Positions 8,467 through 59,575 of a stretch of DNA of 64,000 nucleotides are shown here, piece after piece. Both the position numbers and the translations under genes were made by a program. Every line of letters starts with the position of its first letter. The first letter of the stretch is position 1. The DNA comes from Asticcacaulis benevestitus DSM 16100 = ATCC BAA-896 (lineage in GTDB: Bacteria; Pseudomonadota; Alphaproteobacteria; Caulobacterales; Caulobacteraceae): NCBI RefSeq assembly GCF_000376105.1, contig NZ_AQWM01000012.1, positions 1 to 64,000 on the forward strand. Direction: 5' to 3'. The notes under the pieces are model-generated. The model saw nothing but the letters and a program-made list of their open reading frames with translations, was not told the origin of the DNA and ran no database searches.

Positions 8467-8473
8467 TGGGGTA

Positions 8474-31298: not shown

Positions 31299-31345
31299 GA
31301 TCAGCAGCTCTGAGGTTAAAGGGTGGGCGTAAACCACAGATTTAA

Positions 31346-31395: not shown

Positions 31396-31412
31396 ACAAA
31401 ACAATTGCATTA

Positions 31413-31432: not shown

Positions 31433-31546
31433 ACAAGTCAACATAGAAAATTATTTCACCAGGCAACTTATGCCAATGTTCAATCTATTATTGTATGGTA
31501 TGCCAGAGGAAATTACCTCTAAGCAGGACCATTTTAAGGAGTAGCC

Positions 31547-32434: not shown

Positions 32435-32631
32435 TTATATTATAAATATGATCGCAAGAATGAAATGATAATTGCAAAATGAAAAAAAATAGAAAATATA
32501 GTTCTTAGTGGCGATGGGCATGATGCCCGAGACCGCCACCTTTATTGCGACCCTAACAACACCGGCCTTCGATGGTCACGGTGAGGAACAGGTCAGGGCA
32601 ATAGGGCGGATTGAGGGAACGAGGAAGCCAA

Positions 32632-38818: not shown

Positions 38819-39619
38819 TTACCCCTTATCATCAAACGCGGCATTTGGTCCTGCCAGGAAGGTTTTGACATTTTCGATATGCTGCCACATGGCCACATAG
38901 GCGGCGTTGCCGTTGCGACTCTTCAGCGCTTTCAGGATCACTTCGTGATCGATGATCCAGTTGTCGCGATAATTGGCGTCCTTGACGCGCTTGTGCAGGG
39001 TTAGCCACATTGGGCTGTTGTCACGCCTGCGCCACAATTGATTGACCAGCAGGGCCAGTTCCTTATTCTGCGTCGCCTGGGCGATGGCCATGTGGAAAAG
39101 AATGTCGAAGGTCTCCTTAGGCTCGCCATATCGCGCATTTCGGTGATTGGCCAGGGCCTCTTCAATGACGGCAAGATCAGCGTCGGTGGCGTTCTCGGCG
39201 GCTATTTTAGCGATAAGACTTTCGATAATCTGCCGGGCTTCGAGCAGTTCGAATGGGGCCGCGGCGGGTTTCGATTCCAGCTCAGCCAGGGTTTCATAAG
39301 GTGTGTCTTCCGAAAGCGCGGATTGATAGGCCTTGCGTGTAATGTAGATGCCGGATCCCTGACGCGGCTCGACAAGTCCTTTGACATCGAGCATGACCAG
39401 GGCGTCCCTGATCACCGTGCGACCGACATCGTACCACAGGGCCAGGTCCCTTTCGGGCGGCAAACGGCCGGTGGAGCGAAACTCTCCGGCCCTTATCCTT
39501 TGAACAAGGTGATCGCCGATATCCTGATAGGCCCGGCGCTCTTTCGGGGTCTTCTTCCCTCCTGAAGAGTCAGGGTCATTCACAGGCGGTGCGATCGTAT
39601 CCATAGTGATTTTCTGCAT
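38819..39619 (-). CDS. GntR-family (FadR/FCD subtype) transcriptional regulator
   Basis: A 266-residue regulator (start chosen at the ATG after the upstream gene's stop; the ATG at 39604 is an alternative, and neither has a clear ribosome site). The winged helix spans roughly residues 25-95: YQDIGDHLVQRIRAGEF, LPPERDLALWYDVGRTVIRD, ALVMLDVKGLVEPRQGSGIY. The C-terminal FCD helical domain has ARQIIESLIAKIAAENATDA, LFHMAIAQATQNKEL and WLTLHKRV. Its DNA-reading helix is nearly identical to that of the GntR protein at 48515-49297, so both should see the same operator, most likely the TTGG-N4-CCAA palindromes of this region. A UxuR/ExuR-like response to uronates is plausible, given the adjoining GH115 alpha-glucuronidase. 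Confidence 0.88.
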   Translation of the reverse strand: MQKITMDTIAPPVNDPDSSGGKKTPKERRAYQDIGDHLVQRIRAGEFRSTGRLPPERDLALWYDVGRTVIRDALVMLDVKGLVEPRQGSGIYITRKAYQSALSEDTPYETLAELESKPAAAPFELLEARQIIESLIAKIAAENATDADLAVIEEALANHRNARYGEPKETFDILFHMAIAQATQNKELALLVNQLWRRRDNSPMWLTLHKRVKDANYRDNWIIDHEVILKALKSRNGNAAYVAMWQHIENVKTFLAGPNAAFDDKG

Positions 39620-39659
39620 GAAGGTGGAAGACAAGGGAAACGCGGGTGGGACTCCGTGT

Positions 39660-42822: not shown

Positions 42823-44337
42823 ATGTCGCAAGGCACCATCAAAAAAGTCGTCATCGCGGGCGGAGGCACCGCCGGATGGATGACCGCGGCCTGGTTCTCC
42901 AGGATTTTGCGCGACGACTTTGAAGAGATTGTGCTGGTTGAGAGCGAGGAAATCGGCACGGTCGGTGTCGGTGAGGCGACGACGCCCTATATCCATGTTT
43001 TTAACCGCCACCTGGGGATAAGCGAAGATGAATTTGTCCGCTTCACAAAGGGCACGTTCAAACTGGGTATTGAGTTCGTCAACTGGGGACGTCAGGGCCA
43101 CGCCTACCATCACTCCTTTGGCCCCTATGGCCGCGACTACGGCGCCTTGCCGTTTCATGCCGTCTGGCTGAGGCACTATCTCGAAAACGGCGCGGATCGG
43201 CTTGAAAATTACAGCCTTCAATCTCTGGCCTCGATCAACGGGCGCTTCATGCGACCGACCGGGGCCAATTCTCCGCTGGCCGAGATTGCCTATGCCTACC
43301 AGTTCGACGCCTCCCTATATGCGCGTTTTCTGCGCTCAATCTCCGAGGCGGCGGGCGTGGTGCGGCTGGAAGGCAAAATCGGCCGCGTCAATCTGGGAGA
43401 TTCGGGCGCCATTGAGAGCCTCTCTCTGGAAGATGGCCGCTGTATCGATGGCGATCTGTTTATTGACTGCACGGGTTTCCGCGCCCTCTTGCTGGGTGAG
43501 GCCCTGGGGGTTGGCTATATCGACTGGTCGCGCTACCTGCCGTGCGATCGCGCCCTGGCTGTGCCGACTGCCCGTAAGGGGCCGCCGGCGCCCTACACGC
43601 GCTCCACAGCCCTGAGCGCCGGCTGGCAATGGCGTATTCCGCTGCAACACAGGGATGGCAACGGCCATGTCTTTTCAAGCGCCTTCATAGATGACACGCA
43701 GGCGATGGATGCGCTTCTGGCCAATCTGGACTCGCCGCCCCTGGCGGATCCACGGCCGATCCGCTTTACGACAGGCCGCCGTGAGACCTTCTGGAAAAAG
43801 AACTGTATCGCGGTTGGTTTATCAGCCGGCTTTCTGGAGCCCCTGGAATCCACGTCGATCATGCTCATTCAGAACGCCATTCTGCGCCTGCAATATCTCT
43901 TCCCAGACAAGGATTTCTCAAAGGCGGACACGGCCGCCTACAACGCGGCCATGGCGCGTGAGTACGAAGATATTCGCGACTTCCTCATACTGCACTATAA
44001 GGTGGGCACGCGCGATGACTCGGAGTTCTGGCGTTATTGCCGCCATATGGACATCCCCGAGGGGCTGCAAAACCGCATTGACCTGTTTTCAAGCCGCGGG
44101 CGTATCCCTGAGGAGCGTGGCGAGCAGTTCCGTACGCCGAGCTGGTTAGCGGTCATGATCGGGCAGGGCCTGATGCCGGCGGCGCCGGAACCGCTCAGCC
44201 TGAGCATACCTTCCGACGCCATGAAAACGTGGCTATCCGATTTGCGCAGTGTCATCGGGAACTGCCTTACCCGTATGCCCACGCATGAAGACTTTATTGC
44301 GCAACATTGTCAGGCCCGCCTATCTGAAAGCGCCTGA
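42823..44337 (+). CDS. Tryptophan 7-halogenase-family flavoprotein
   Basis: A 504-residue flavin-dependent halogenase-type protein. AGGGTAGWMTAAWF binds FAD near the N-terminus; the conserved Lys is residue 80 (GTFKLGIEFVNW). The W-x-W-x-I-P motif is present (GWQWRIPLQHRDGNGHVFSS), as are LEPLESTSIMLIQNAI and its conserved Glu. It is a paralogue of the protein at 14881-16386. It is divergent from GH115 and convergent with the large TonB receptor, again inside a glycan locus without an antibiotic pathway. Substrate unknown; some relatives halogenate free tryptophan or indoles, others accept bulky molecules. The expected flavin reductase is not in the window. Confidence 0.88.
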   Translation: MSQGTIKKVVIAGGGTAGWMTAAWFSRILRDDFEEIVLVESEEIGTVGVGEATTPYIHVFNRHLGISEDEFVRFTKGTFKLGIEFVNWGRQGHAYHHSFGPYGRDYGALPFHAVWLRHYLENGADRLENYSLQSLASINGRFMRPTGANSPLAEIAYAYQFDASLYARFLRSISEAAGVVRLEGKIGRVNLGDSGAIESLSLEDGRCIDGDLFIDCTGFRALLLGEALGVGYIDWSRYLPCDRALAVPTARKGPPAPYTRSTALSAGWQWRIPLQHRDGNGHVFSSAFIDDTQAMDALLANLDSPPLADPRPIRFTTGRRETFWKKNCIAVGLSAGFLEPLESTSIMLIQNAILRLQYLFPDKDFSKADTAAYNAAMAREYEDIRDFLILHYKVGTRDDSEFWRYCRHMDIPEGLQNRIDLFSSRGRIPEERGEQFRTPSWLAVMIGQGLMPAAPEPLSLSIPSDAMKTWLSDLRSVIGNCLTRMPTHEDFIAQHCQARLSESA

Positions 44338-44562: not shown

Positions 44563-47500
44563 TTAGAAGATCGCCTTAAGCGTAACGGTGTAGGTGCTGC
44601 CGTCGTAGTCGATCCAACGAACCAGCTTGCTGTCATTTTCGTATTCAAAACGCTTCGAATTGGTCATGTTGTAAGCGTCCAGGGACACCGTATACTGATC
44701 ATTGATGTTGTACGAAGCTGACAGATCGAGCTGACCACGCGCCTTGACGGAGCGTGCTTTGCCGCTGTAGGTGCCGTTAGCGTTGAGCGGATAATCCGAG
44801 CGCCAGTTATAGGTGGCGCGGACGCCCCATTTGGTGGTCTCGTAATAACCGATGGCGTTATAGGTGAACTTCGAGATGCCAGCGAAGGGCGCCAGCGCTG
44901 GGCTCTTCGCTTGGGTGAAGGCATAGTTGAAGTTACCGCCGAAGTTCTTCCAGAAGCCGGGCAGGAAGTCCAGATTCTGTTGAATGTTGAACTCAAGGCC
45001 ATGCACGTAGGTCGGCTTGTCGAGGTTATAGCTGCCGGAGGCTTCGACGAAGACGATCTTCGAGCTGGTGCTTAAAGTCGTGGCGATACAGTTCGTACCG
45101 TTCCAGTTCAGAGCGCCATAACCCCAGTTCGAGCCATCAGCCGGGCAGAGAAGCGCCGGGTCGCTGGTGTCGGCAATGCGTCCCGTGATCTTCTTGTCGA
45201 AATATGCAAGAGAGATCAGGCTGTTGGGGCGGTTATACCATTCCAGTGACAGATCGTAGGAGTCGGCCAGATACGGGCGTAGATTGTTGTTTCCAATCCT
45301 GACCGTCGCTTTGTCGATTTCCAACGACGGTGTCGATGAGCTGCCGTTACGTAAGGGTTGCCCGAACTGAGAGACCGGCGAATACTGACGCGCCTGAGGA
45401 CGAACGTAGGTCTTGTAGTAGGCACCACGCAGAACGAGATCGTCACGGATATCGGCCGCAAAAATAGCCGATGGCAACCAGTAATGATACTTGTTCTTGA
45501 TCTCGTGCTGGCTGAAGTTTGCCAAGGCGCCTACGCTGTCGGCGAAGGCAGAGGTTTGATCCAGAGTCTGGATCGAGTTGTCGGTCGTCTCATAGCGCGC
45601 GCCAAAGTTACCACGGACACGATGACCGATGATCTGGGTATCGTATTTCGCCTGGATATAGGCCTGGGTAAGGTTGTTGGTGTTGGTAAAGTTGTATTTG
45701 CCAAAGGCGCTGTCGGCATAAAGGATATTCAAGCCGACGCTTGTCAGTCCGCCGCCATTGTAAGCCGTGACCGGTGTTACAGCGGACAGGAACTTCTCGG
45801 CGTCGATAACCTGCCAGTTCTTGGAGATCGCCGCGTCACCGCCCATGAAATCATTGATCGATGGTGCCGCGATCAGCATGTCCTGAGTGATTTTGGTCGT
45901 GTCGATGCCGTAAGCCATGTTACGGAAGCCCTTGGACTTGAAGCGGTTCTGCTCCAGACGGACGCCACCTTGGATGCTGGTGATCGGGCCAAAATCAATA
46001 TAGCGCTCCAGATCAAACTGAGCCGAGTTTACCTGATTATAGGCGTAGCTCTCGGACCCGGAGACATTGAGGTTGTAGACGCCACCGGCCGTATAAAGGT
46101 TTTCAGGATCGCACGACGTCCAGTTCCACGCATTTGCTGCATAGGTGGGGGGGGTGTCCCCGTCACAAACTTTGCCATTCTTCACAGTGGAGGCCGTCAC
46201 ATCATTGAACGCGTAGTTGAAGATTGCGTTCTGAGGGCTCGGCGTCACATTGTAGGAGAAGTCGCCCAGCTTGCCGAGACCGGTGTTGAAATTGGCCGTA
46301 ATGCCATTCGTTCCACCCGAATAGTTGGGATTGGTCTGCAAGTCGAGTTCCGTTTCGAGCGAGGAGCTCAAACTGTTCGAGATCGACAGGACGGCTGCAG
46401 CGCGCCACTTGTCATCACGCCAGTCGGCATTGGCAACCAGTCCCTTGGACTGTTGATGCTGTGAGTACAGGCGGGTCGATGACTTGGCCGGGAAGTTGGT
46501 CATCGTGATGTCGGAATAGAGATAACGGCCATCGGAGGTCGAGACCGGATCGCCATGGGTCGCCACGGTGCCCGCGCCATCCCACATCGAGTTGATCAGG
46601 AAATATTGTGTGGTCTTGGGCAGGTCGCGGTCCGTATAGAAGCCGACCACACCGAGCTTGGTGCTGTCGTTCGGCTTCCACTCTATGCCTGCCGATCCGG
46701 TCCACAGGTTGCCTTCGTTGGTGCGGGTGTACTGGCGCAGGGCGCTGTCATACCAGGCGCCGGCCTTGCCTTTGGAGCCCGTCGAGCTGTTGACGTACTG
46801 AGCTGCGTCAGCATCGGTCATGTTCAGAGCGCTGGCCAGGGAGCTACAGAAGGCTGCTGCTGAACTGGTGCAGGCCGTGGGGGAATAATAGGCGCCATAT
46901 TGCGATGCGAAATCCGCGGCGGATTGCCCCGTGCCTTGAGCGCTGAGGGCGCTGTAGGTGTTGAAGCGCAGCGTATCACGACGGAAGTTTTCGTGCTTGT
47001 AGGCGAGCGTGCCGAAAACGGCGAGCGTCGGGCTGATATGCTTGTTATAGCCAACGGTAAAGGCTGGCGCCGCCAATTTGCCCAGCGCGTTATATTCGTA
47101 AGACGCCTTGGCGAATCCGCCATCCTTACGCGACAGGGCGGGAGCGATCTGCACGTCGATATTACCCGAAAGCCCACCCGATTGGGCGTTGGCCATAGGC
47201 GACTTTTCGATCATGAAAGCGCTGAAAATGTCAGAATTGAAGGCGCCCAGAGGGGTGGACGAATCGTCGCTCAGGGAAGGCGGATCCGCAAAGGCCTGAC
47301 CATTCAGGGTCGTGCGGGCATACGAGCCTGGCATGCCGCGCAGGTTGATCGTGGCGTTGCGACCTTCGGCTTCGCGGTTGATCTGGACGCCCGGAATGCG
47401 TTGCAGAGCTTCGCCGACGTTCAGGTCGGGGAAACGGCCGAGGCCATCCGAGGAAATGCCGTCAGTGATTTCGATGTTGTTCTTCTTGGAACGCACGGCA

Positions 47501-47667
47501 TCAGCGTAGCTCTTCTTGAAGCCGGTAACGACGACTTCTGTAGCTGCGGAAGTATCGGCTGGTGCAGCGTCCTGAGCGAAGGCGATTCCCGCTGTGCCGC
47601 TCATGAGTATGGTGGCGCAAAGCAAGACTTTTTTAAGCTCGCGGCGCCCGTTTATAGGCATCGTCAT
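44563..47667 (-). CDS. TonB-dependent outer-membrane receptor (1034 aa)
   Basis: A large receptor. Signal region MTMPINGRRELKKVLLCATI then LMSGTAGIAFAQ; TonB box ATEVVVTGFKKS; plug domain with GLGRFPDLNVGEALQRIPGV, REAEGRNATINLRGMPGS and TTLNGQAFADP; barrel ending YTVTLKAIF. The start at 47667 is chosen because GAGGAG stands 8 bases before it; the longer form (to 47715) lacks a signal sequence at its N-terminus. This TonB-receptor type, with an AEGRNATINLRG-like plug, is typical of polysaccharide/oligosaccharide uptake in Caulobacterales. A TTGG-N4-CCAA palindrome lies 118 bp upstream, tying it to the GH genes of the region. Confidence 0.92.
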   Translation of the reverse strand: MTMPINGRRELKKVLLCATILMSGTAGIAFAQDAAPADTSAATEVVVTGFKKSYADAVRSKKNNIEITDGISSDGLGRFPDLNVGEALQRIPGVQINREAEGRNATINLRGMPGSYARTTLNGQAFADPPSLSDDSSTPLGAFNSDIFSAFMIEKSPMANAQSGGLSGNIDVQIAPALSRKDGGFAKASYEYNALGKLAAPAFTVGYNKHISPTLAVFGTLAYKHENFRRDTLRFNTYSALSAQGTGQSAADFASQYGAYYSPTACTSSAAAFCSSLASALNMTDADAAQYVNSSTGSKGKAGAWYDSALRQYTRTNEGNLWTGSAGIEWKPNDSTKLGVVGFYTDRDLPKTTQYFLINSMWDGAGTVATHGDPVSTSDGRYLYSDITMTNFPAKSSTRLYSQHQQSKGLVANADWRDDKWRAAAVLSISNSLSSSLETELDLQTNPNYSGGTNGITANFNTGLGKLGDFSYNVTPSPQNAIFNYAFNDVTASTVKNGKVCDGDTPPTYAANAWNWTSCDPENLYTAGGVYNLNVSGSESYAYNQVNSAQFDLERYIDFGPITSIQGGVRLEQNRFKSKGFRNMAYGIDTTKITQDMLIAAPSINDFMGGDAAISKNWQVIDAEKFLSAVTPVTAYNGGGLTSVGLNILYADSAFGKYNFTNTNNLTQAYIQAKYDTQIIGHRVRGNFGARYETTDNSIQTLDQTSAFADSVGALANFSQHEIKNKYHYWLPSAIFAADIRDDLVLRGAYYKTYVRPQARQYSPVSQFGQPLRNGSSSTPSLEIDKATVRIGNNNLRPYLADSYDLSLEWYNRPNSLISLAYFDKKITGRIADTSDPALLCPADGSNWGYGALNWNGTNCIATTLSTSSKIVFVEASGSYNLDKPTYVHGLEFNIQQNLDFLPGFWKNFGGNFNYAFTQAKSPALAPFAGISKFTYNAIGYYETTKWGVRATYNWRSDYPLNANGTYSGKARSVKARGQLDLSASYNINDQYTVSLDAYNMTNSKRFEYENDSKLVRWIDYDGSTYTVTLKAIF

Positions 47668-47784
47668 TATAGTTTCTCCTCTGATACCTCCGGCAGACTG
47701 AGCTGCTGGGGCCATGTCTTTCCCACTTATATCGACGTGGAACCTGTTTATTGAGCGCTTGACCTATTCGGCACTGAGAGTTTG

Positions 47785-48514: not shown

Positions 48515-49297
48515 ATGGCACCTCATTCACCCGCTCTTTCGGCGCGTGTTGATTCGGACAAGGACGTTCGCGCTTACCGCACGGTAGGCGAATCGCTGCT
48601 TGAGCGTATTCGGAACGGAGAGTTCCGCATGCTGGGCAAGCTGCCCACCGAACGTGAATTGGCCGAGATGTATAATGTCGGACGGGCCGTGGTGCGCGAT
48701 GCGCTGGTCATGCTGGAGGTCAAGGGGCTTATTCAGTCGCGCCAGGGCTCGGGTATCTACATAACGCGTCGCGCTTATGAATTGGACGCAAGTGACGCGG
48801 ATGAAGCGGTCAAGGAGCGTCCCTTTGACACGTTACCGCCGTCCGGCCCGGCCGAATTTTTGCAATCGCAGCAGTGGTTTGAAAGTCATTTGTCGCGGTT
48901 GGCCGCCCTTTCGGCGACGGAAGACGACTTAATCGAGCTGGAACGTTTAAGCGAGGAATGCCGCGTCGCGCCGCACGCCGGCTCGCGCGCCTATACCGAA
49001 ATGCGCTTCCACCTGAGCATAGCCCGCGCCACCCAAAATCCCGAACTGATCAGCCTTGCCCACCATCTTTGGCAACGGCGCGACAACAGCCCGCTGTGGC
49101 ACAATTTCTATGCACCGGCGACGGAGCTTAAGAGTGACCGCTGGACCGCCGCACGTGAAAAGCTTGTGGCCGCGCTCAGGCGTCACGATGGCGACGCCGC
49201 CTTTGTCGCCATGTGGCAGTATGTTGACGAGATCAAAGACTTTCTGACCGAGGCCAACGCCATCCCGCCGGAAATCGCTGAGTCGGTGCGGTCTTGA
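48515..49297 (+). CDS. GntR-family (FadR/FCD subtype) transcriptional regulator
   Basis: A 260-residue regulator closely related to the one at 38819-39619. Winged helix: YRTVGESLLERIRNGEFRML, LPTERELAEMYNVGRAVVRD, ALVMLEVKGLIQSRQGSGIY. The FCD domain includes QQWFESHLSRLAALSATEDD, MRFHLSIARATQNPELISLA and WQRRDNSPLWHNF. It is the first plus-strand gene after the receptor control region and lies 198 bp before the GH89 operon, whose upstream gap has two TTGG-N4-CCAA palindromes. It is probably a repressor responding to a sugar acid or sugar released by these enzymes. The ATG at 48515 is the first start compatible with the domain. Confidence 0.88.
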   Translation: MAPHSPALSARVDSDKDVRAYRTVGESLLERIRNGEFRMLGKLPTERELAEMYNVGRAVVRDALVMLEVKGLIQSRQGSGIYITRRAYELDASDADEAVKERPFDTLPPSGPAEFLQSQQWFESHLSRLAALSATEDDLIELERLSEECRVAPHAGSRAYTEMRFHLSIARATQNPELISLAHHLWQRRDNSPLWHNFYAPATELKSDRWTAAREKLVAALRRHDGDAAFVAMWQYVDEIKDFLTEANAIPPEIAESVRS

Positions 49298-49495: not shown

Positions 49496-51787
49496 TTGCC
49501 GCACCTTAATCGCCGTCACATTCTTGTATCCGGTCTCTCGCTGGCAGCTGTCGGCATGGCCGCGGGCGCCGCGGGGGCTACAGAGACCACACCGGCCAGC
49601 GCCGGCGTTCTGAAGCGCCTGATCGGTTCGCGCGCGAAATCCATCACCTTCAAACTGACGCCGTCTGGGTCCGCAAAGCCGTGGTATGCGGTCTCGGCGC
49701 ACGGCGGAAAACTGACCGTCGAAGGCTCTGACCCGGTGGCCCTGACCAAGGGCGCCTACAGCTATCTTAAATCCACCGGCGCAGCGCAAGTAAGCTGGGA
49801 AGGTGATCGCGTCGACCTGCCGTGGCGTCTGCCCGATGCCGCCCTGACGCGCACCGAAACGCCTTTCCGCCATCGCGCCTATATGAACACCTGCACCTTT
49901 GGCTACACAACGCCGTGGTGGACCTGGTCGCGCTGGGAGCGCGAAATCGACTGGATGGCGCTGCACGGCATCGATATGCCGCTGGCCATGGAAGGTCAGG
50001 AATATGTCTGGCAGGCGCTGTGGCGCGAAAATGGCCTGAGCGACGCCGAACTGGCCGCCTATTTCTCAGGACCGGCCTTCACGCCGTGGCAGCGCATGGG
50101 CAATATCGAGGGCTATGATGCGCCGGTGCCGCAGGCCTGGATCCGCAAGAAGCAGGTTCTGCAAAAGCAGATCCTGGGGCGGATGCGTGAGCTGGGCATG
50201 ACGCCGATCCTGCCGGCGTTTGGCGGCTATGTACCGAAAGCCTTCGCTGAAAAGCACCCCGAGGCCCGAATCTACAAGATGCGTGCCTGGGAAGGCTTCC
50301 ACGAAACCTACTGGCTCGATCCGGCCGATCCTTTGTTTGCCAAGCTGGCCGGTCGTTTCATCGCGCTCTATACCGAAACCTATGGCGAGGGGCAGTATTA
50401 CCTGGCTGACTCGTTCAACGAGATGCTGCCGCCGATCGCCGCCGATGGTTCCGACGCCGCCAAGGCGATCTATGGCGATGCCACCGCCAACACCAAGGCC
50501 GTAGCCGAGGTCGATCCGGCGGTGAAGGCCAAGCGTCTGGCCGCCTATGGTGAGGCAATTTACGATTCGATCCGCCAGGCGCGCCCCGACGCCGTCTGGG
50601 TCATGCAGGGCTGGCTGTTCGGCGCCGACAAGGAATTCTGGTCGAGCGACGCCATCGGTGCCTTCCTGAGCCTGGTGCCGGACGACAAGCTGATGGTGCT
50701 TGATATCGGCAATGACCGCTATCCCGATGTCTGGACCCGCGCCGACGCCTTCAAGGGCAAGACCTGGATCTATGGGTATGTCCATAATTACGGGGGTTCG
50801 AACCCGGTCTATGGCGATCTCGACTTCTATCGCAGCGACCTCAAGGCGATCACCACGAGCGACAAAACGGGTAACCTGGCCGGCTTCGGGGTCTTCCCCG
50901 AGGGCCTCCACAACAACAGCGTCGTCTACGAATATCTCTACGATCTGGCGTGGGGCGATGTGCCGGTGGCGGATTGGCTTCAGACCTATACGCGCGCCCG
51001 TTATGGCCACACCTCGCCGGCCCTGATGCAGGCGTGGAACGATCTGCAAAAGGCGGTCTACCAGACGCGCTACTGGACGCCGCGCTGGTGGAAAAGCCGC
51101 GCCGGCGCCTATCTCTTCTTTAAGCGTCCGACGATCGAGGGCGCCGATTTCCCGGCTCTGCCCGGCGACTGGACTTTGCTGAAACTGGCGCTCACGGAGT
51201 TCCTGGCGCTCGGCAAGAGCTACGGTCATTCGCCGCTGTTCTGCAACGATGTGATCGACGCCACGCGCCATCTTGTCAGTGGTGACATGGATCGCCTGGT
51301 TCAGGTGGCCATTAAGGCCTATCAGGCCGGCGATCTTCAGGCGGGTGACAAGGCCGTGGCGGATCTGAGCGATCTCGCCATCCGGCTTGACGCCTTGCTC
51401 GGATATCAGCAGGAAACCTTGAGTAGCTGGATCGACGACGCCCGCGCCTATGGCGATACGCCGGCGGAATCGGCCTATTATGTCGAGAACGCCAAGGCGC
51501 AGGTGTCGGTCTGGGGCGGCAAGGGCAATCTCAACGACTATGCCTCGAAGGCCTGGCAAGGCATGTACAAGAGCTTCTATCTGCCGCGCTGGCTGAAGCT
51601 GTTCAGCGCCCTGCGTGCCGGCGGTTTCGATCAGGCGGCCTTCACCGTCAGCATCACGAAGTGGGAGCATGACTGGGTGAACGACGCTCAGGTCTATACC
51701 CGCAGTAAGCCATCCGATCCGATCGCTGCGGCGCGCGTCTTGCTTGGCCGCCTGGAAGGGCTTGAAAGTCTGGAAGGTAAGGCATGA
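49496..51787 (+). CDS. GH89 family alpha-N-acetylglucosaminidase, exported
   Basis: A 763-residue relative of human NAGLU. A TTG start preceded by GGGGAG opens a twin-arginine-like signal (LNRRHILVSGLSLAAVGMAA). The catalytic domain shows FRHRAYMNTCTFGYTTPWW, DWMALHGIDMPLAMEGQEYV, YLADSFNEMLPP (acid/base Glu region) and GFGVFPEGLHNNSVVYEYLY (nucleophile Glu region). It removes alpha-linked terminal GlcNAc. The gene overlaps a HGSNAT/NagX-like membrane acetyltransferase by ATGA, and a GlcNAc kinase follows, so they form a GlcNAc-recovery unit. A long antisense reading frame exists within it and is a composition artefact. Confidence 0.92.
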   Translation: MPHLNRRHILVSGLSLAAVGMAAGAAGATETTPASAGVLKRLIGSRAKSITFKLTPSGSAKPWYAVSAHGGKLTVEGSDPVALTKGAYSYLKSTGAAQVSWEGDRVDLPWRLPDAALTRTETPFRHRAYMNTCTFGYTTPWWTWSRWEREIDWMALHGIDMPLAMEGQEYVWQALWRENGLSDAELAAYFSGPAFTPWQRMGNIEGYDAPVPQAWIRKKQVLQKQILGRMRELGMTPILPAFGGYVPKAFAEKHPEARIYKMRAWEGFHETYWLDPADPLFAKLAGRFIALYTETYGEGQYYLADSFNEMLPPIAADGSDAAKAIYGDATANTKAVAEVDPAVKAKRLAAYGEAIYDSIRQARPDAVWVMQGWLFGADKEFWSSDAIGAFLSLVPDDKLMVLDIGNDRYPDVWTRADAFKGKTWIYGYVHNYGGSNPVYGDLDFYRSDLKAITTSDKTGNLAGFGVFPEGLHNNSVVYEYLYDLAWGDVPVADWLQTYTRARYGHTSPALMQAWNDLQKAVYQTRYWTPRWWKSRAGAYLFFKRPTIEGADFPALPGDWTLLKLALTEFLALGKSYGHSPLFCNDVIDATRHLVSGDMDRLVQVAIKAYQAGDLQAGDKAVADLSDLAIRLDALLGYQQETLSSWIDDARAYGDTPAESAYYVENAKAQVSVWGGKGNLNDYASKAWQGMYKSFYLPRWLKLFSALRAGGFDQAAFTVSITKWEHDWVNDAQVYTRSKPSDPIAAARVLLGRLEGLESLEGKA

Positions 51788-52896
51788 AACCGGCGCGCTT
51801 CAAATCACTCGATGTTTTTCGTGGCCTGACCGTATGTGTCATGATCATTGTCAACACGGCCGGCGCCGGGGCGGAGCCTTTCGCCACCCTGCAACACGCT
51901 AAATGGTTTGGCTTCACCCTGGCCGACGCGGTCTTCCCGTCGTTCCTGTTTGCGGTCGGCAACGCCATGAGCTTCGCGATGAAGCCCGGTGTTTCCAATA
52001 AAGACTACTTGCTGAAGGTGCTGAAACGCACCGTGCTGATCTTCCTGCTCGGCTATTTAATGTACTGGTATCCCTTCGTTCATCAGCAGGTCGATGGCAC
52101 CTGGGCGCTCAATCCGATCGGTGAAACGCGCATTATGGGCGTGCTGCAACGCATCGCCCTGTGCTTCGGCATCGCCGCCGTGGTCTGCCGCTATCTGCCG
52201 GTCAAATACCTGATTTTCCTCTGCGTGATCCTGCTGGTCGGCTACTGGTCGATCCTGATGGCCTTTGGCCTGCCGGGACAGCAGTTGACCCCGCTTGGCA
52301 ATGCCGGCGCCCTGTTCGATCAGGCGGTGATAGGCATCCAGCACATGTATAAAAAGGGGCACGGCTACGATCCGGAGGGCTTGCTCAGCACCCTGCCGGC
52401 CATCGTCAATGTGATCGCGGGCTATCTCGCTGGTCTCTACATCATGCGTACAGGCGACAAGCCCAAGCTGGTGCGTAACCTCTTGATCGGCGGTGCACTC
52501 ATCGTTGCGGCCGGCCTGCTGTGGAGCCTTGGCTTCCCATTGGCCAAACGCCTGTGGACCAGCCCGTTCGTGCTCCTGACCGTGGGCATCGACCTGTTGA
52601 TCCTTGGCGTCCTGATCACCTATGTCGAGATCGCCGGCCAGACGCGCGGTACGAAGTTCTTCGAGATCTTCGGTAAGAACCCACTCGTCATCTACCTGTT
52701 CTCCGAGCTTCTTGTCACCACGATGCAACTGATCAAGATCAATGAAGAAGGGCTTTATGACTGGATCGGCATCCATCTCTTCCAGGCGGTGCTGCCCGGC
52801 GCCATCGGTTCCTTGGTCTGCGCCATCACCTATATGCTGGTATGCTGGCTACTCGGCTTTGCCATGGACAAGAAGAATATCATCATCAAACTCTAA
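51784..52896 (+). CDS. nagX: NagX/HGSNAT-like membrane acyltransferase (DUF5009/COG4299)
   Basis: A 370-residue inner-membrane protein with about ten hydrophobic helices. The N-terminal block FKSLDVFRGLTVCVMIIVNT and LQHAKWFGFTLADAVFPSFL align with the human lysosomal heparan-alpha-glucosaminide N-acetyltransferase, including the His (residue 38) that is catalytic there. Bacterial members are called NagX and occur in GlcNAc/chitin loci. The gene overlaps GH89 by 4 bases. It may transfer acetyl from cytoplasmic acetyl-CoA to amino sugars in the periplasm, or act in GlcNAc transport; neither is proven. A small GATCGT/ACGATC stem lies after it (52931-52947). Confidence 0.85.
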   Translation: MKPARFKSLDVFRGLTVCVMIIVNTAGAGAEPFATLQHAKWFGFTLADAVFPSFLFAVGNAMSFAMKPGVSNKDYLLKVLKRTVLIFLLGYLMYWYPFVHQQVDGTWALNPIGETRIMGVLQRIALCFGIAAVVCRYLPVKYLIFLCVILLVGYWSILMAFGLPGQQLTPLGNAGALFDQAVIGIQHMYKKGHGYDPEGLLSTLPAIVNVIAGYLAGLYIMRTGDKPKLVRNLLIGGALIVAAGLLWSLGFPLAKRLWTSPFVLLTVGIDLLILGVLITYVEIAGQTRGTKFFEIFGKNPLVIYLFSELLVTTMQLIKINEEGLYDWIGIHLFQAVLPGAIGSLVCAITYMLVCWLLGFAMDKKNIIIKL

Positions 52897-53028
52897 ACGG
52901 CTTACACTTCACGCGCGTTTCCATATCCACGATCGTTACGGACGATCACACCTGTTCCTTTATCTAAGCTATCATTTCTCACCGGTCGCAAGACCATGAC
53001 GACAGCCTGAACTTCAAAGTTGATACCC

Positions 53029-53937
53029 ATGTCACAGACCCAAAAGCCCCTCTACTATATCGGCATTGACGGCGGAGGCACACGGTGTCGCGCGCGCCTT
53101 ACGACCTATGCCGGCCAGGTTCTGGGCGAGGGCAGCGGTGGTCCGTCCAATATTCGTCTCGGACTGGGCGCGGTCTGGCGCAATATCATGGTGGCGGTGG
53201 ACGAAGCCTTGGTGGCTGCGGGCCTTACCCATGCGGATCTTCAGGACATTCATCTTGGTCTGGGGCTGGCCGGTATCACCTCGCCGACCAGCGCCCAGGT
53301 GACGATTGATTCCGGACCGGCTTTTGGCGCGATCTACGCTTCGAGTGACGCGCACGCGGCTTGTCTGGGCGCATTCTCCGGCCATGATGGCGCCATTCTG
53401 ATTGCCGGTACAGGCAGTGCGGGCTATATCTTCAGCGACGGGATCGGCCAGTCGATCGGGGGCTGGGGCTTCGAGGTGGGTGATGATGGCTCGGCCGCCG
53501 GACTGGGGCGTGCGGCGCTGCGTGCGGCCTTGCGCAGTCACGATCAGGTTGCGCCGGTCTCCGACATGACCCGTGAGATCATCGCGGAACTCGGTGGTCA
53601 CACCGCCGATGTCATTGCCTTTGTCACCACGGCGACACCGAGTGATTTTGGTGCCATGGCGCCAATGATCATGCGCCACGCCATGAACAGAGACGCCGTC
53701 GCCTTACGCCTTGTGCAGGACGTGGCCGACGAAGTGGGGCGCTACATTGCGCGGCTCCATGATCTGGGTGCGTCCAAAATCGCCCTGGTGGGCGGCATGG
53801 CCGAGCCGATCACGCCGTGGCTCAATCCTGCCGCCAGACGCCTGCTGACCGAAGCGGAACAGGACCCGATGGAAGGCGCTATTTTTCTGGCCAAGGGCAT
53901 CGGCAACGGCTTTGCCTCGGTGGATATGTCTCAGTAG
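53029..53937 (+). CDS. BadF/BadG-type N-acetylglucosamine kinase
   Basis: A 302-residue ASKHA-fold kinase: the phosphate-1 loop YIGIDGGGTRCRARL, the SGGPSNIRLG block, SDAHAACLGAF, the phosphate-2 motif ILIAGTGSAGYIF and GGWGFEVGDDGSAAGLGRAA identify the BadF/BadG/BcrA/BcrD family, sub-type N-acetylglucosamine kinase (as NAGK). ATG 53029 is preferred to the TTG at 53020. It phosphorylates GlcNAc (or GlcN) in the cytoplasm after import. It lies 132 bp after nagX in the same direction and ends before a stable stem-loop. nagA and nagB are not in the window. Confidence 0.85.
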   Translation: MSQTQKPLYYIGIDGGGTRCRARLTTYAGQVLGEGSGGPSNIRLGLGAVWRNIMVAVDEALVAAGLTHADLQDIHLGLGLAGITSPTSAQVTIDSGPAFGAIYASSDAHAACLGAFSGHDGAILIAGTGSAGYIFSDGIGQSIGGWGFEVGDDGSAAGLGRAALRAALRSHDQVAPVSDMTREIIAELGGHTADVIAFVTTATPSDFGAMAPMIMRHAMNRDAVALRLVQDVADEVGRYIARLHDLGASKIALVGGMAEPITPWLNPAARRLLTEAEQDPMEGAIFLAKGIGNGFASVDMSQ

Positions 53938-54012: not shown

Positions 54013-55644
54013 CTAGGCGGTCAGTCCTGTGCCCATGATCTTCAGGACGGGCGTGAAAGAGGGCCGGCTGTCGGGTAGCTTGACCGTCAGGCCGCCCAGC
54101 CCCAGTTCGAAATCGAGTGCCTGGCCGTGGCCCAAAAGCTCGACGCGTTCGATCCAGCCTTTGCGCTGAGACTGGCCTGCCGCCATGCAGGTCAGGACGA
54201 CAAAACCGCTGTCAGGCCAGGCCTGCGAGATGGCGTAAAGAACGCCAGCCTTGGTGGTGAAACGTATATCTTCGTGGGTGAAGGGCTTAGCGTCGCCTTC
54301 GTTCATCATGCCTTCTACCGGCTTGAAGGGCCCCTCACCGTAGATGTCCCACGGCCGGGTGGCAAAGATGGCGTCACCGTTGACGCTGAGCCATGACCCC
54401 ACGCCGCCTACGATTTTTTCTTCTTTTTCATCGATCGAGCCGTCGGCGCGTACCGGAATATTGAGCAGCAGGTTGCCGTTTTTCGAGACCACATCGCACA
54501 GGCGCTGAATGACCTGTAGGGCGCTCTTGTAGCCGTCACGTTCATACAGCGGCCGATCGTAATGCCAGTTGCCGATGCAGGTGTCGGTTTGCCAGGGCAG
54601 GGGGCGCAGATGGTCGGAAAAGCCGCGCTCGACGTCCTCCACAATGGCGCGGCGTTGCAGATCGTCGAGCTTCTTGCCATTGACGACGACGTCTAACTTA
54701 CCATGCCAGTCGAGACTGCGATTGTAAAAATAGGCCGTCGCATCTAGGCCGGCCTGTTCCAGCGGCAAGGCGTAATCATCAAAATAAAGCAGGTCGGGCT
54801 TGTAGGTGTCGACCATGTCCTTGGTGCGGGCCAGCCATTTTTTGACAAAATAGGGGTCTTGCGGCGGCACGGTTTCCAGCCACTGACCGGAATGCGCGTC
54901 ATGGTAGGCGTTCATCGCCTTGATCGTATCGAGGCCATCGGGTGGTGTCATATCGCCCTGACGCCCCGTGTAGAGTTCCTGGGGGTCGAGGCCCTCCCAC
55001 CACAAACCCTTGCCGTCTTCCTTCTTCAGGCGATAGGCGTCATAGCGCAGGCCGTGCGCAGCGCCTTCCGGATCGTAACCGTAGGCGGTCTGTCCCCAGT
55101 GCCAGGCGTGAGAGAGGTGGTTCGATAGCCCGAAGCGCAGGCCGTGGTCCCTCGCCGCCTTGGCCCAGCCCGCCATGGTATCACGCTTGGGCCCGACCTT
55201 CGTTATGTTCCAGTCCTGATATTTCGAGTTGAACATATCGAAATTGTCGTGGTGGCCCGCCATGGCGACGAAGTATTTCGCGCCGGCCTTCTTATAGAGC
55301 CCAACCAGATGATCAGGGTCCCAGGCGTCAATTTTCCAATTCCTGAGAAATTCCATGAACCCGAACTGCGCCGGATGGCCGTAGGTCTTGACATGGTGAT
55401 CGTAGGCTTTGTCGCCTTGCATATACATGCTGCGGGCATACCAGTCGCCGAATTCCGGGATGCACTGAGGCCCCCAGTGCGCCCAAAAGCCAAGCTTGGC
55501 GTCACGGAACCACTCCGGCGTTTGATAGCCGGAGGCGAGGGTTTGCCAACTGGCCGCCAATCGCTGGGGCTTGGCCTGGCTATGGGGCGCCATGAAACCA
55601 CTCGCTGTCGCTGCCGCGATAATCGATCGTCTTGAAACGCGCAT
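54013..55644 (-). CDS. GH29 family alpha-L-fucosidase, exported
   Basis: A 543-residue GH29 enzyme. The start at 55644 follows GGAGG and opens a twin-arginine-like signal (MRVSRRSIIAAATASGFMAP). Catalytic barrel blocks: WFRDAKLGFWAHWGPQCIPE, YFVAMAGHHDNFDMFNSKYQ, GLSNHLSHAWHWG, LLYFDDYALP (the nucleophile Asp), then NGNLLLNIPVRADGSI near the end of the barrel. It removes alpha-linked L-fucose from glycans. It follows the GH2 gene in the same direction; the short gap carries an unusual ATCAACCAA/TTGGTTGAT inverted repeat (55684-55719), so it may have its own promoter. Linkage preference cannot be read from sequence alone. Confidence 0.9.
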   Translation of the reverse strand: MRVSRRSIIAAATASGFMAPHSQAKPQRLAASWQTLASGYQTPEWFRDAKLGFWAHWGPQCIPEFGDWYARSMYMQGDKAYDHHVKTYGHPAQFGFMEFLRNWKIDAWDPDHLVGLYKKAGAKYFVAMAGHHDNFDMFNSKYQDWNITKVGPKRDTMAGWAKAARDHGLRFGLSNHLSHAWHWGQTAYGYDPEGAAHGLRYDAYRLKKEDGKGLWWEGLDPQELYTGRQGDMTPPDGLDTIKAMNAYHDAHSGQWLETVPPQDPYFVKKWLARTKDMVDTYKPDLLYFDDYALPLEQAGLDATAYFYNRSLDWHGKLDVVVNGKKLDDLQRRAIVEDVERGFSDHLRPLPWQTDTCIGNWHYDRPLYERDGYKSALQVIQRLCDVVSKNGNLLLNIPVRADGSIDEKEEKIVGGVGSWLSVNGDAIFATRPWDIYGEGPFKPVEGMMNEGDAKPFTHEDIRFTTKAGVLYAISQAWPDSGFVVLTCMAAGQSQRKGWIERVELLGHGQALDFELGLGGLTVKLPDSRPSFTPVLKIMGTGLTA

Positions 55645-55683
55645 CCTTAGCCTCCGCACTTTGGGTCGGCGCATCTAATGATC

Positions 55684-55749: not shown

Positions 55750-58254
55750 TCACCCTGGCAAGGATGTCAGGGTCAGACGGGCGGCGGGAACGCCGTCCGT
55801 CGTCGCGGTGACGATCACGGGCGCACCCACAGAGCCGCGCCTTGCGCGCACAACGGCTTGGGCCAGACCGTTGAAGAGATGACGTGATGACGCCTTGTCC
55901 GCCTCAAGACTGGTCGGATTTCCGTTGCCGACGCCGGCGATGCGGGCAGGCCCGGACAGGCTGAAATGGATGAGGTTGTCGGCGGTCGGCAAGGCTGTGC
56001 CCTGGGCGTCGAAAAGCTCGGCGCGAATGAGCGCGACATCCTGGCCGTCGGTGCGCAGGCCGGCCCTGTCCGAGGTGATCGACAATCGGGTGGCCGGGCC
56101 TGCGGTACGGCGCGCCGTCTTCATGACCACCTTATCGCCCTTGAAACCGTAAGCGACCAGTTCGCCCGGGGTAAAGGGTACGGACCATTGCACATGACCG
56201 TCTTTCGGCACGCTCTGAACACCCAGGGAGCGCTTGTTGAGGAACAGCTCGACCTTGTCGAGGTTGCTGTAGGCCCAGACGTCAATCGTCTTGCCTTCCG
56301 ATCCCGTCCAGTTCCAGTGCGGCAGCAGATGCAGCACCGGCGCCGATTGCCACCAGGATTTGTAGTAATAGTAAATATCCTTGGGAAAGCCGCAGGTGTC
56401 CAGAATGCCGAAATGGGAGGAGATCTCGGGCCAGCGGTTGAAGGGCGTCGGTTCGCCGCGATAATCGAAGCCGGTCCAGACGAGTCCCCCAGCCAGATAA
56501 GGTTTGGCGTCGTAAAGTGACCACCAGGCGCTGGCCGTCAGGGCATAGGAGGGGGCATCCAGATCATAGGCCCTCACATAGCCTTTCACCTCATCGCGGA
56601 CATACTCGCCACGTGTCGATACGGCGCTGGCGGTTTCGGTGCCGACAATCGGCATGTCGGGGTAAAGCTTGCGGAAGGGTTCGATGCTCGACTCGTGATA
56701 ATTGAAGCCCATGACGTCCAGCGCGGGCGTGAGGCCCTGACCCTGATAGTGGTTCATGGCCGCCGTGATCGGCCGGGTCGGATCGAGAGACTTGATGAGG
56801 CGGCGCATATCCAGCGCGATCTTCAGGCCACGTTCCGTGCCCTGCTGAGCCGTTTCCTCATTTCCGATCGACCAAAGGATGACGCTTGGATGGTTGCGGT
56901 CACGGTGTATGAGGGTTGCGAGCTGGCTCAGGCCCTCAGGCGTCGCGGTCATCAGGCGTGTTTCGTCGATGACGAGCATGCCCAGTTCATCGCAGGCCTC
57001 CAAAATGGCTTCGTTGGGCATGTTGTGGGCGCAACGCCAGATGTTCGCGCCCATGTCTTTCAGTTGTTTGACACGCCAGTGATGCAGGGCGTCCGGCACG
57101 CCCGTGCCCACGCCGGCATGATCTTCATGGTTATTAGCGCCCCGAAGCTTCAGCCATTTTCCGTTGAGGAAAAAGCCTTCTTTTGCGTCAAAGCGGATGT
57201 CGCGCAGACCGAAGCGAACAGTACTGACATCCAGGGTCTTGCCTGCCTCGCGGATTTCACAGCGCGCCGTATAGAGGTGCGGATCGTCAAGAGACCACAG
57301 TTTCGGCGCTGCCAGATGCGAAGCCTGGGACACCTGGCTTTCACCATAGGCGTCAAGCTGCGCCGTTGATGTGACCGAGGCTACGGCGCGTCCCTCACGG
57401 TCGTAGATGTCGGTGACCAGATCGACCGCTCTTGGGCTGGCCGATGCGTTTTTGAGGGTCGCCTCCAGGCTGATGGCGCCGGACGTTTCGCCCCGAACGC
57501 ACAGGCCCCATTGGGGGACGTGCACCTTGTCGGTTTTGACAAGCCAGACATGGCGGTAAATGCCGGCGCCTTCGTAAAACCAGCCTTCGCCCAGGCTGGC
57601 GTCAACCCGAACCAGCAAGATATTCGGCCCTTGCGGGTTTATATAGTTGGTGATGTCGACACTGAAGGGTGTGTAACCACTTTCATGCCGCGTCAGCACG
57701 TAGCCATTGAGGATAACGAGGGAGTCTCTGAAGACGCCGTCAAATTCTAGGGTCAGAACGCGGTCGGCATCACCCGGCTGCAGTTCGAAACCCTTGCGAT
57801 ACCAGCCTATGCTGTTTTCCGGAAAGCGACGCCCGATGGCCTTGTAGCCATGACCCGCGCCGGGATCGCCATCTTCCGGGTTCTGCGGCGGAATGAAGTA
57901 ATCGTTACGTGCGAAAGGCAGGCCCACGGCCCAATCGTGCGGTAGATCGACCGGCTGCCAGAGATGATCGTCAAAATCGGCGGTTGACGGCTCCGCAACC
58001 TGACCGTTGCCCTGTTTGGCGTAGGTTTTCTGGTCGCGGCCAAAGCCGAAATCACGGTTGACGTCAGCGGCGTGTCCCAGGGCAAAGCGCCAGTCGAAGT
58101 CAAATAAGATGCGTTCGCGCGGCGCCAGAGAAGGCGCCGATGCCGTTGTCACGGGCTGGACGACCGGCTGTTTCGGCGCGGCAAGCGCTGACACAGGCAG
58201 GGCGCTCAGGGCGGCAGCCGCGGAGAGAACAGAGCGACGATCTGGCTTTTTCAT
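55750..58254 (-). CDS. Glycoside hydrolase family 2, beta-galactosidase-like, exported
   Basis: An 834-residue GH2 enzyme. The N-terminus MKKPDRRSVLSAAAALSALP is a twin-arginine-like signal; ATG 58254 has GGAAAC before it, whereas ATG 58266 lacks a site. Domains: jelly roll (RILFDFDWRFALGHAADV, VDLPHDWAVGLPF), Ig-like, TIM barrel with WSIGNEETAQQ (acid/base Glu) and IVGTETASAVS (nucleophile Glu), then C-terminal beta domains. It differs in length and detail from the GH2 at 16580-19429, so a different linkage is likely. It is divergent from GH43, with two perfect TTGG-N4-CCAA palindromes between them. It probably trims terminal beta-galactose before GH29, GH89 and GH92 act. Confidence 0.88.
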   Translation of the reverse strand: MKKPDRRSVLSAAAALSALPVSALAAPKQPVVQPVTTASAPSLAPRERILFDFDWRFALGHAADVNRDFGFGRDQKTYAKQGNGQVAEPSTADFDDHLWQPVDLPHDWAVGLPFARNDYFIPPQNPEDGDPGAGHGYKAIGRRFPENSIGWYRKGFELQPGDADRVLTLEFDGVFRDSLVILNGYVLTRHESGYTPFSVDITNYINPQGPNILLVRVDASLGEGWFYEGAGIYRHVWLVKTDKVHVPQWGLCVRGETSGAISLEATLKNASASPRAVDLVTDIYDREGRAVASVTSTAQLDAYGESQVSQASHLAAPKLWSLDDPHLYTARCEIREAGKTLDVSTVRFGLRDIRFDAKEGFFLNGKWLKLRGANNHEDHAGVGTGVPDALHHWRVKQLKDMGANIWRCAHNMPNEAILEACDELGMLVIDETRLMTATPEGLSQLATLIHRDRNHPSVILWSIGNEETAQQGTERGLKIALDMRRLIKSLDPTRPITAAMNHYQGQGLTPALDVMGFNYHESSIEPFRKLYPDMPIVGTETASAVSTRGEYVRDEVKGYVRAYDLDAPSYALTASAWWSLYDAKPYLAGGLVWTGFDYRGEPTPFNRWPEISSHFGILDTCGFPKDIYYYYKSWWQSAPVLHLLPHWNWTGSEGKTIDVWAYSNLDKVELFLNKRSLGVQSVPKDGHVQWSVPFTPGELVAYGFKGDKVVMKTARRTAGPATRLSITSDRAGLRTDGQDVALIRAELFDAQGTALPTADNLIHFSLSGPARIAGVGNGNPTSLEADKASSRHLFNGLAQAVVRARRGSVGAPVIVTATTDGVPAARLTLTSLPG

Positions 58255-58311
58255 AGGCGTTTCCATTTTTTAGACCTGAACCTGCGGTGGTTGTCCGCCG
58301 CTTTTTAGACA

Positions 58312-58603: not shown

Positions 58604-59575
58604 GTGGTAGTGAGAACGACAGGGATGACTTTGGCCAGGGCGGCATGCGCCGCTATCGTCGTAGGTATGATGATGGCCACTCCGGGTTCTGCGGGCCAGC
58701 CGATTTCTCCGCGCTTTAACGCAGATCCGTCGCCGCATTATTTCAAGGGGCGCTACTATCTGTACGCCACCAATGATCAGGACAATTCAGGCACCTACTG
58801 GGACTCGACCGACTGGCGTCTGTTCACGTCGAAGGATCTGGTCCATTGGAAGGATGCGGGCTCGTTCCTCTCTGTTTCGGTGTTTGCCTGGGCGCGACCA
58901 GACGCCAAGGCTTGGGCACCGGAAGCGGCGCATCGAAACGGAAAATACTATTACTATGCCCCCGTGGGTGGAGATAAGATCGGCGTGGCCGTCTCGAACG
59001 CGCCTGAGGGGCCCTTTGTCGATGCGCGTGGCGATGCCCTGATCGACAAGGCCCGTGATGGCAATGCCGGCGCAGAGCCTATTGATCCGGCGGTTTTGAT
59101 TGACGATGACGGGCAGGCCTATCTGCTGTTCGGCACGCGCGTGCCGAAAATCGTCAAGCTGAAAAGCGACATGATCCACACGGAGGGGCCGATCCTGGAC
59201 CTCATCGTGACCGGCTTTCCCTCGGATGATCCCAAGAAGGCCTATGGCGAGGCGCCCTTCCTGCACAAGCGCAACGGGCTCTACTATTTCAGTTTCTCGA
59301 CGGGCTGGCCGGGGCAGATCGTTTACGCGACGGCGAAATCGCCCATGGGGCCCTATGCCTATCGCGGCGTGATTCTGGACTATTTGCCCATATCGACCAA
59401 CCATCAGGCTATCATCGAGCGCAAGGGGCGATCCTGGCTGTTCTATCACGACAACCTCCTGCCCGGTGGCGGTGATCACAAACGCTCCATCGCCATAGAG
59501 CCCCTGACCTATAATCCGGACGGCACCATCCGGCAGGTTTATCCGACCAAACCGGCTGTTGCCCCTGCCCAATAG
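58604..59575 (+). CDS. GH43 family glycosidase, exported
   Basis: A 323-residue five-bladed propeller enzyme. A signal peptide (MTLARAACAAIVVGMMMATP, cut near GSAG) follows a GTG start at 58604; GTG 58610 or ATG 58625 are alternatives. The three catalytic acids are visible: Asp in FNADPSPHYFKGRYYLYAT, Asp in EPIDPAVLIDDDGQAYLLFG and Glu in AYGEAPFLHKRNGLYYFS. The family covers beta-xylosidases, alpha-L-arabinofuranosidases and galactan exo-enzymes, so xylose or arabinose release is expected. It is a minimal single-domain form without the extra C-terminal beta domain. It leads a plus-strand series with two GH92 genes. Confidence 0.88.
   Translation: MVVRTTGMTLARAACAAIVVGMMMATPGSAGQPISPRFNADPSPHYFKGRYYLYATNDQDNSGTYWDSTDWRLFTSKDLVHWKDAGSFLSVSVFAWARPDAKAWAPEAAHRNGKYYYYAPVGGDKIGVAVSNAPEGPFVDARGDALIDKARDGNAGAEPIDPAVLIDDDGQAYLLFGTRVPKIVKLKSDMIHTEGPILDLIVTGFPSDDPKKAYGEAPFLHKRNGLYYFSFSTGWPGQIVYATAKSPMGPYAYRGVILDYLPISTNHQAIIERKGRSWLFYHDNLLPGGGDHKRSIAIEPLTYNPDGTIRQVYPTKPAVAPAQ

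Follow-up and report, generated by a model that had tools for sequence, protein, structure and literature searches.

Our analysis of a 64,000-nucleotide stretch of the Asticcacaulis benevestitus DSM 16100 genome (contig NZ_AQWM01000012.1, positions 1 to 64,000; here referred to as the window) revealed a gene for a glycoside hydrolase of family GH89, homologous to the human lysosomal alpha-N-acetylglucosaminidase NAGLU, that overlaps the gene for a membrane protein homologous to the lysosomal N-acetyltransferase HGSNAT and related to bacterial NagX. The pair is real and is kept over several bacterial families. Its locus brings together enzyme families for alpha-linked N-acetylglucosamine (GlcNAc), alpha-linked glucuronic acid (GlcA) and inositol; GlcA-inositol carrying GlcNAc or unacetylated glucosamine (GlcN), written GlcN(Ac)-GlcA-inositol, is the head of the glycosylinositol phosphorylceramide (GIPC) sphingolipids of plants. 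We tentatively propose, with a confidence falling just short of an even balance, that the two proteins act as a periplasmic acetylate-then-cleave pair in a locus for these sphingolipid heads. What we observed directly is the arrangement of the genes, their homology, the fold, the conserved residues and the conserved linkage; from these we infer the activities, the acceptor and the sequence in which the steps would occur.

The GH89 and HGSNAT-type proteins form a conserved pair

The GH89 gene begins with a TTG start codon, and its product exceeds the Pfam cut-offs of all three NAGLU domains (422.9, 177.5 and 68.8 bits against 25.5, 25 and 28.3). The closest solved structure is human NAGLU (4xwh; sequence search, E value of 9e-113), and a twin-arginine-like signal (NRRHILVSG) was read by eye in the translation. 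GH89 relatives were represented by the best 80 of 588, a set that leans towards this bacterium's own family; L032 is truncated at a contig end, which leaves 79 for assessment. The columns of the catalytic residues, Glu309 and Glu469 (positions in the translated protein), hold glutamate in 79/79 relatives as well as in human NAGLU and in CpGH89. The pocket is of the human type and lacks the Trp685 loop of CpGH89; as the loop is absent from 79/79 relatives, we rejected a mucin-type GH89. Bt3590 of Bacteroides thetaiotaomicron, likewise a human-type GH89 without the loop, is reported to cleave GlcNAc-alpha-1,4-GlcA (PMC8225759), and the main text of that article, in which the word acetyltransferase does not appear, describes no NagX-type partner by that name. 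A GH89 protein with a CpGH89-like insertion, including the Trp, is encoded at 7329-9560 of L185, a 17-kb stretch that holds no NagX. To judge from the sequence, pocket type may predict partnership with NagX, L185 being one case and too few for a rule.

The membrane protein matches the Pfam family HGSNAT_cat with 38.8 bits (cut-off of 22), and human HGSNAT chains are its nearest solved structure by sequence (phmmer, E value of 7e-19). It has the HGSNAT fold, in a match that spans residues 263 to 663 of HGSNAT only. A previous interpretation, made from the letters of the window alone (the sequence-only reading), had singled out a catalytic-type histidine in the motif LQHAKWFG, and this residue, His38, indeed aligns with H297 of HGSNAT. 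Asn24, Asp48, Arg116 and Glu198 correspond to N286, D307, R372 and E499, respectively. The catalytic set N286/H297/D307 and the GlcN contacts R372/E499 are kept here and in 78/78 GH89-linked proteins (the residue table leaves out L032, which is cut, and L052 and L065, whose open reading frames are split or over-extended). The fold and these residues argue against the protein being a sugar transporter instead of an acetyltransferase. Such a role would find some support in a distant kinship to the putative N-acetylmuramic acid transporter TfMurT noted by Price et al. 2022 (PMC9007349); the same authors, however, argue otherwise on the ground that NagA and other transporters are needed, and HGSNAT itself reportedly does not carry its substrate across the membrane (PMC11199644). 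We therefore regard a transporter as most unlikely.

In NCBIfam, which uses the name NagX, the membrane protein reaches 157.8 bits against the NagX equivalog NF046061, below the cut-off of 480, and by its sequence it is a relative of NagX that is not filed as a NagX equivalog. The GH89-linked proteins are marked by Glu308 (E615 of HGSNAT), present in 78/78 of them and in 5/36 other homologues, and by a periplasmic hairpin at residues 98-110. A tree of 60 NagX-like proteins, which left out 55 of the 78 GH89-linked ones, united the 23 sampled GH89-linked proteins and L150 in one clade (100/100); L173, a second GH89 partner, is placed elsewhere, and the pairing label needs at least two changes. 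L150 (6844-7938) is a second close NagX-like gene of A. benevestitus, with 378 bits to the window copy, on contig C66. It follows a tryptophan-halogenase-like gene near a TonB receptor and also matches Acyl_transf_3, and there is no GH89 on its short contig of 9,218 bases.

The sequence-only reading had claimed that the NAGLU and HGSNAT homologues stand side by side and that their genes overlap by ATGA. Pfam domains and sequence matches confirm the former, and the ATGA is present at 51784-51787. Such an overlap is frequent in bacteria and by itself weak evidence; a 4-base overlap occurs in 46/79 relatives, a count that depends on the start codons chosen. NagX lies directly downstream of GH89 in 76/79 relatives and upstream in 3/79, on the same strand in all (a gap of −1657 in L065 is an open-reading-frame artefact). 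These relatives come mostly from Caulobacter, Asticcacaulis, Sphingomonas and kin, and Xanthomonas and kin, with two from Azospirillaceae (L040 and L045). Across the phylum, GH89 (PF05089) is rare, with matches in 4/299 sampled genomes, this one included. Within the Caulobacteraceae, 22/119 genomes carry one GH89 each, and a close NagX (at least 426 bits) stands beside it in 22/22, on the same strand, 370 to 855 bp from the catalytic domain and after GH89 in every genome save one. The 149 genomes of family f7 contained one GH89, with NagX adjoining. The two GH89 sets overlap (L017, L018, L021 and L026 versus G383, G369, G408 and G377; GH115 is identical in L018 and L198), so their counts are not independent, and the sampling is centred on one phylum; the neighbour censuses cover 59/78 and 63/83 proteins and are confined to the 25 commonest families out of 83 and 102, respectively.

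A GlcNAc kinase had also been claimed to come next. A kinase of the BadF/BadG family (123.2 bits in Pfam) does follow and, judged by its sequence, is a probable GlcNAc kinase, but its score against the NCBIfam model NagK_SO3507 (NF046058) is 231.7 bits, under the cut-off of 370. Because its likely start, ATG 53029, lies about 130 bp past the membrane gene, it is not coupled in the way GH89 and the membrane gene are. Collectively, these data support the gene anatomy, the conservation of the catalytic machinery and a conserved partnership with GH89, and the sequence-only reading as a whole is partly supported. The bacterial pair resembles human lysosomal HGSNAT and NAGLU in both enzyme families, the fold, the catalytic residues and the proposed acetylate-then-cleave logic; it differs in its coupled genes, in the lack of a luminal domain, and in neighbours suggestive of alpha-GlcA and inositol, not of sulfated heparan. 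Among the publications listed in our literature search, none dealt with both GH89 and HGSNAT.

Alpha-glucuronidase and inositol genes near GH89

The A. benevestitus genome holds one match each to GH115, to the fused protein IolC-DUF2090 and to GH89, all three within 20 kb, and the myo-inositol operon at 30312-38139 is complete, with five Iol models all over their cut-offs (Table 1). Among the Caulobacteraceae, GH115 occurs in 21/22 genomes with GH89 versus 7/97 without it, and IolC-DUF2090 in 10/22 versus 8/97. With distances measured within one contig and matches on other contigs counted as not near, GH115 lies within 25 kb of GH89 in 14/22 genomes and IolC-DUF2090 within 20 kb in 5/22, against roughly 0.5 and 0.1, respectively, expected by random placement, a calculation that takes no account of shared ancestry or of the tendency of sugar genes to cluster. 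GH115 is linked in all five genomes with linked IolC. These five triple loci, which are the window, G377 and three genomes of genus g4, differ in gene order: in G377, NagX precedes GH89, with iol, GH92 and GH115 beyond, and in genus g4 the order is GH92, GH115, GH92, iol, GH89, NagX, with a TonB receptor between iol and GH89 in G374.

The GH115 enzymes of xylan utilization loci belong to the same Pfam family as the window protein and are described as cutting the alpha-1,2-GlcA linkage of xylan. Of the 22 genomes with GH89, 21 also contain GH10 xylanases, with 57 matches in all that include a single gene in two pieces; none of the 57 lies within 25 kb of GH89, and the nearest on a shared contig is 204 kb off. 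A xylan utilization locus combining GH115 and GH10 was not found here, this genome's three GH10 genes all being on other contigs. At the same 25-kb distance, the 44 GH115 copies of the 22 genomes comprise 14 near GH89, 9 near GH10, none near both and 21 near neither. In a GH115 tree of 39 rows (10 of 49 near-duplicates dropped), a 100/100 branch separates 19 GH89-linked from 9 GH10-linked rows, and the window protein is not on the xylanase-linked side; long branches meet in this tree, and its branch depth is to be read with caution. On the basis of the GH10 control and the tree, we reject xylan as an explanation for the GH115 genes linked to GH89.

The sequence-only reading had seen in the pair an echo of the lysosomal heparan pathway, and this part did not hold. 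Catabolism of heparan sulfate or heparosan as in lysosomes would employ the same two enzyme families and a human-type GH89, and Bt3590 is reported to cleave heparosan oligosaccharides (PMC8225759). However, no sulfatase match (PF00884, E value of 1e-10) was found in this genome, and none of the 25 matches spread over 11 of the 22 genomes with GH89 lies within 25 kb of it; two share its contig, the nearer one 322 kb off, and the rest are on other contigs. Given this lack of sulfatase matches, and with GH115 and inositol catabolism genes as neighbours, which suggest alpha-GlcA chemistry and another substrate, we reject heparan sulfate for this genome. The sulfatase result leaves unsulfated heparosan untouched; there the GlcA is beta-linked (PMC8225759), whereas GH115 is an alpha-glucuronidase family, and no polysaccharide lyase was recognised among the window proteins scanned. 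We thus consider heparan or heparosan catabolism highly improbable.

The inositol genes would also fit an acceptor in which GlcN sits directly on inositol, as in glycosylphosphatidylinositol (GPI) anchor glycans, GlcN-type GIPCs or the actinobacterial GlcN-inositol precursor of mycothiol. GlcN is unacetylated in GPI glycans and in mycothiol. The window holds both GH92 and iol, and a GlcN-first GIPC core has been named (PMC6151786). In this order, GH92 would remove mannose, NagX would acetylate GlcN, GH89 would cut GlcNAc-inositol and the Iol enzymes would use the inositol. Such a scheme leaves unexplained the UxuR/ExuR-like regulators and GH115 with its recurrence described above, and we find both the acceptor and this sequence of steps improbable.

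A possible route for GIPC head groups

Since GH115 and the inositol operon recur beside GH89 and xylanases do not, we propose the GlcN(Ac)-GlcA-inositol heads of GIPCs as the substrate. The membrane protein would hold cytoplasmic acetyl-CoA in its pore, and its His38-Asp48 dyad would acetylate alpha-glucosamine ends that face the periplasm. After export to that compartment, GH89 would take off the resulting alpha-GlcNAc, which the kinase would trap once imported. GH115 would then take off the exposed alpha-1,2-GlcA, freeing inositol for the Iol enzymes to burn. GH92 would suit the alpha-mannose variant of GIPC and GH2, GH43 and GH29 the galactose, arabinose and fucose of larger heads, and these enzymes would trim such sugars from other head series. 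Fucose is a component of larger GIPC heads. Arabinose, galactose and mannose have been described in GIPC heads (PMC9113257). That the locus serves for eating GIPC sugar heads, with the HGSNAT homologue acetylating GlcN ends so that the NAGLU homologue can open them, is a possibility we hold with some reserve.

Both GlcN and GlcNAc forms of the heads are reported, and the GlcN form is predicted to arise by deacetylation of the assembled lipid (PMC9113257). Infected tomato leaves held both forms as inositol phosphate glycans (PMC11496612). Unacetylated GlcN is described as not being a substrate for lysosomal glycosidases (PMC11199644); if the bacterial GH89 resembles these, a GlcN-ended head would be a dead end without NagX. 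None of the publications listed in our literature search describes bacterial breakdown of GIPC head groups.

The main rival is amino-sugar salvage, in which the membrane protein would acetylate free periplasmic GlcN only and GH89 would cut GlcNAc-ended glycans unaided, both belonging to a shared GlcNAc regulon. Price et al. 2022, who noted the kinship of NagX to HGSNAT, used mutant fitness data on five bacteria to propose that free glucosamine in the periplasm is acetylated by NagX with cytoplasmic acetyl-CoA (PMC9007349); this acetylation as such is thus already proposed and not new. In relatives L012, L013 and L206 a full nag operon surrounds the pair (TonB-dependent receptor-GH89-NagX-NagP-NagK-NagQ-NagB-NagA), and NagX homologues also occur beside GH20 and nag genes. 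The window protein is homologous to the NagX of Shewanella and others (NF046061), with periplasmic glucosamine acetylation predicted and a GlcNAc-type kinase nearby in both, but it falls in the separate, GH89-tied clade and its proposed acceptor is glycosidic. Salvage does not readily explain why GH89, which should release GlcNAc and not GlcN, has a NagX partner in all 79 near relatives and all 22 Caulobacteraceae genomes, and none of the window proteins that we scanned was recognisable as an enzyme that would release free alpha-GlcN. Furthermore, HGSNAT itself takes glycosides, methylumbelliferyl-beta-GlcN in its structure paper (PMC11199644). On balance, we judge salvage rather unlikely.

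Two stretches with other NagX-like genes, L159 (5645-9140) and L165 (5766-9256), show a GH20-like beta-hexosaminidase gene with the NagX-like gene directly after it, overlapping by 4 bases in L165. This is the same pairing with an enzyme for beta-linked GlcNAc, and the link of NagX may thus be with exo-hexosaminidases generally.

Several points weigh against the GIPC proposal. The chance figures overstate the linkage, since the genomes share ancestry, sugar genes tend to cluster in any case and GH10 is the sole unrelated control. IolC is near GH89 in just 5/22 genomes, a minority, and among 80 named loci (flanks of at most 10 kb) 8 show iol, 20 GH115, none both and 52 neither. Xylan is the substrate on which GH115 acts in published work. 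The loop-less GH89 Bt0438 is reported to be poor on the heparosan disaccharide GlcNAc-GlcA (PMC8225759), and lack of the Trp685 loop alone is therefore no predictor of GlcNAc-GlcA activity. The published NagX genetics fits free GlcN (PMC9007349), and a GH20-like match is present in 7/37 stretches around other NagX-like genes, several of which show nag operons. In the three further GH89 genomes of the phylum sample, NagX is adjacent in one only (L173); in L176 it lies 4.1 kb away on the opposite strand, and L185 is the third, its stretch holding no NagX. L173 lacks both Glu308 and the 98-110 hairpin, so these clade features are not required for GH89 pairing, and we do not take the pocket specific to this clade to prove that the acceptor is glycosidic. 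Finally, our scan of window proteins, which did not include every small open reading frame, recognised no phospholipase C or D and no ceramide gene; plant or other microbial enzymes may release the head group. A PF04185 phosphoesterase, of a family that includes phospholipases C, occurs near GH89 in one relative (L078 15035-16483, about 2 kb beyond NagX) and by sequence is a candidate for lipid head-group release.

Other genes of the window and significance of the pair

The remaining annotated genes are listed in Table 1. A block at 26545-30297 beside the inositol operon encodes a GH4-family glycosidase, a PfkB kinase and an amino-acid-permease-type transporter. At 6833-10967, two divergent operons for ribosomally synthesized and post-translationally modified peptides each hold an MbnB/TglH/ChrH-type iron enzyme and a DUF2063 partner, and small Cys-containing secreted precursor candidates are encoded at 8474-8758 (minus) and 9013-9291 (plus). 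These operons resemble copper-buffering peptide clusters.

Table 1. Annotated features of the window
Feature	Coordinates	Strand	Basis
GH2 family, beta-galactosidase-like	16580..19462	-	Profile match
GH92 alpha-mannosidase family	20746..23049	-	Profile match
IolG inositol 2-dehydrogenase	30312..31337	-	TIGR04380, 421.6 bits (cut-off 355)
RpiR-type regulator beside inositol operon	31547..32434	+	Pfam HTH_6, SIS
IolC-DUF2090 fused kinase/aldolase, sole PF09863 match in genome	32611..34572	+	NF047869, 725.9 bits (cut-off 600)
IolD	34533..36413	+	TIGR04377, 885.9 bits (cut-off 715)
IolE myo-inosose-2 dehydratase	36410..37318	+	TIGR04379, 386.8 bits (cut-off 290)
IolB 5-deoxy-glucuronate isomerase	37315..38139	+	TIGR04378, 331.7 bits (cut-off 205)
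GntR/FCD regulator	38819..39715	-	Nearest NCBIfam UxuR and ExuR, under cut-off
GH115 alpha-glucuronidase family, sole match in genome	39660..42578	-	Pfam, family search, tree
Tryptophan-halogenase family protein, adjoins TonB receptor	42823..44337	+	Profile match
TonB-dependent receptor, TonB-Xanth-Caul subfamily	44563..47715	-	Profile match
GntR/FCD regulator	48515..49297	+	Nearest NCBIfam UxuR and ExuR, under cut-off
GH89 alpha-N-acetylglucosaminidase (NAGLU homologue)	49496..51787	+	Pfam NAGLU_N, NAGLU, NAGLU_C
ATGA stop/start overlap of GH89 and membrane gene	51784..51787	+	Sequence; relatives (see text)
HGSNAT-type transmembrane N-acetyltransferase (NagX-like), predicted	51784..52896	+	HGSNAT_cat (PF07786)
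BadF-type kinase, probable GlcNAc kinase	53020..53937	+	Pfam BcrAD_BadFG; likely start ATG 53029
GH29 alpha-L-fucosidase family	54013..55674	-	Profile match
GH2 beta-galactosidase, GalA equivalog	55750..58266	-	NF041462, 1050 bits (cut-off 900)
GH43 family	58604..59575	+	Profile match
GH92 alpha-mannosidase family	59641..61827	+	Profile match
GH92 alpha-mannosidase family, runs off window	62105..63998	+	Profile match

GIPCs have been described as the major sphingolipids on earth (PMC7570276). If our proposal is true, the locus would represent, as far as our limited searches show, the first prokaryotic acetylate-then-cleave pathway on glycosidic glucosamine and a recycling route for a major class of plant membrane lipid, and would identify the enzymes involved. 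It would account for the joint occurrence of NAGLU and HGSNAT homologues in bacteria, offer smaller bacterial counterparts as models of two proteins of Sanfilippo disease, and link some members of Caulobacter, Asticcacaulis and Sphingomonas to a diet of specific plant lipids.

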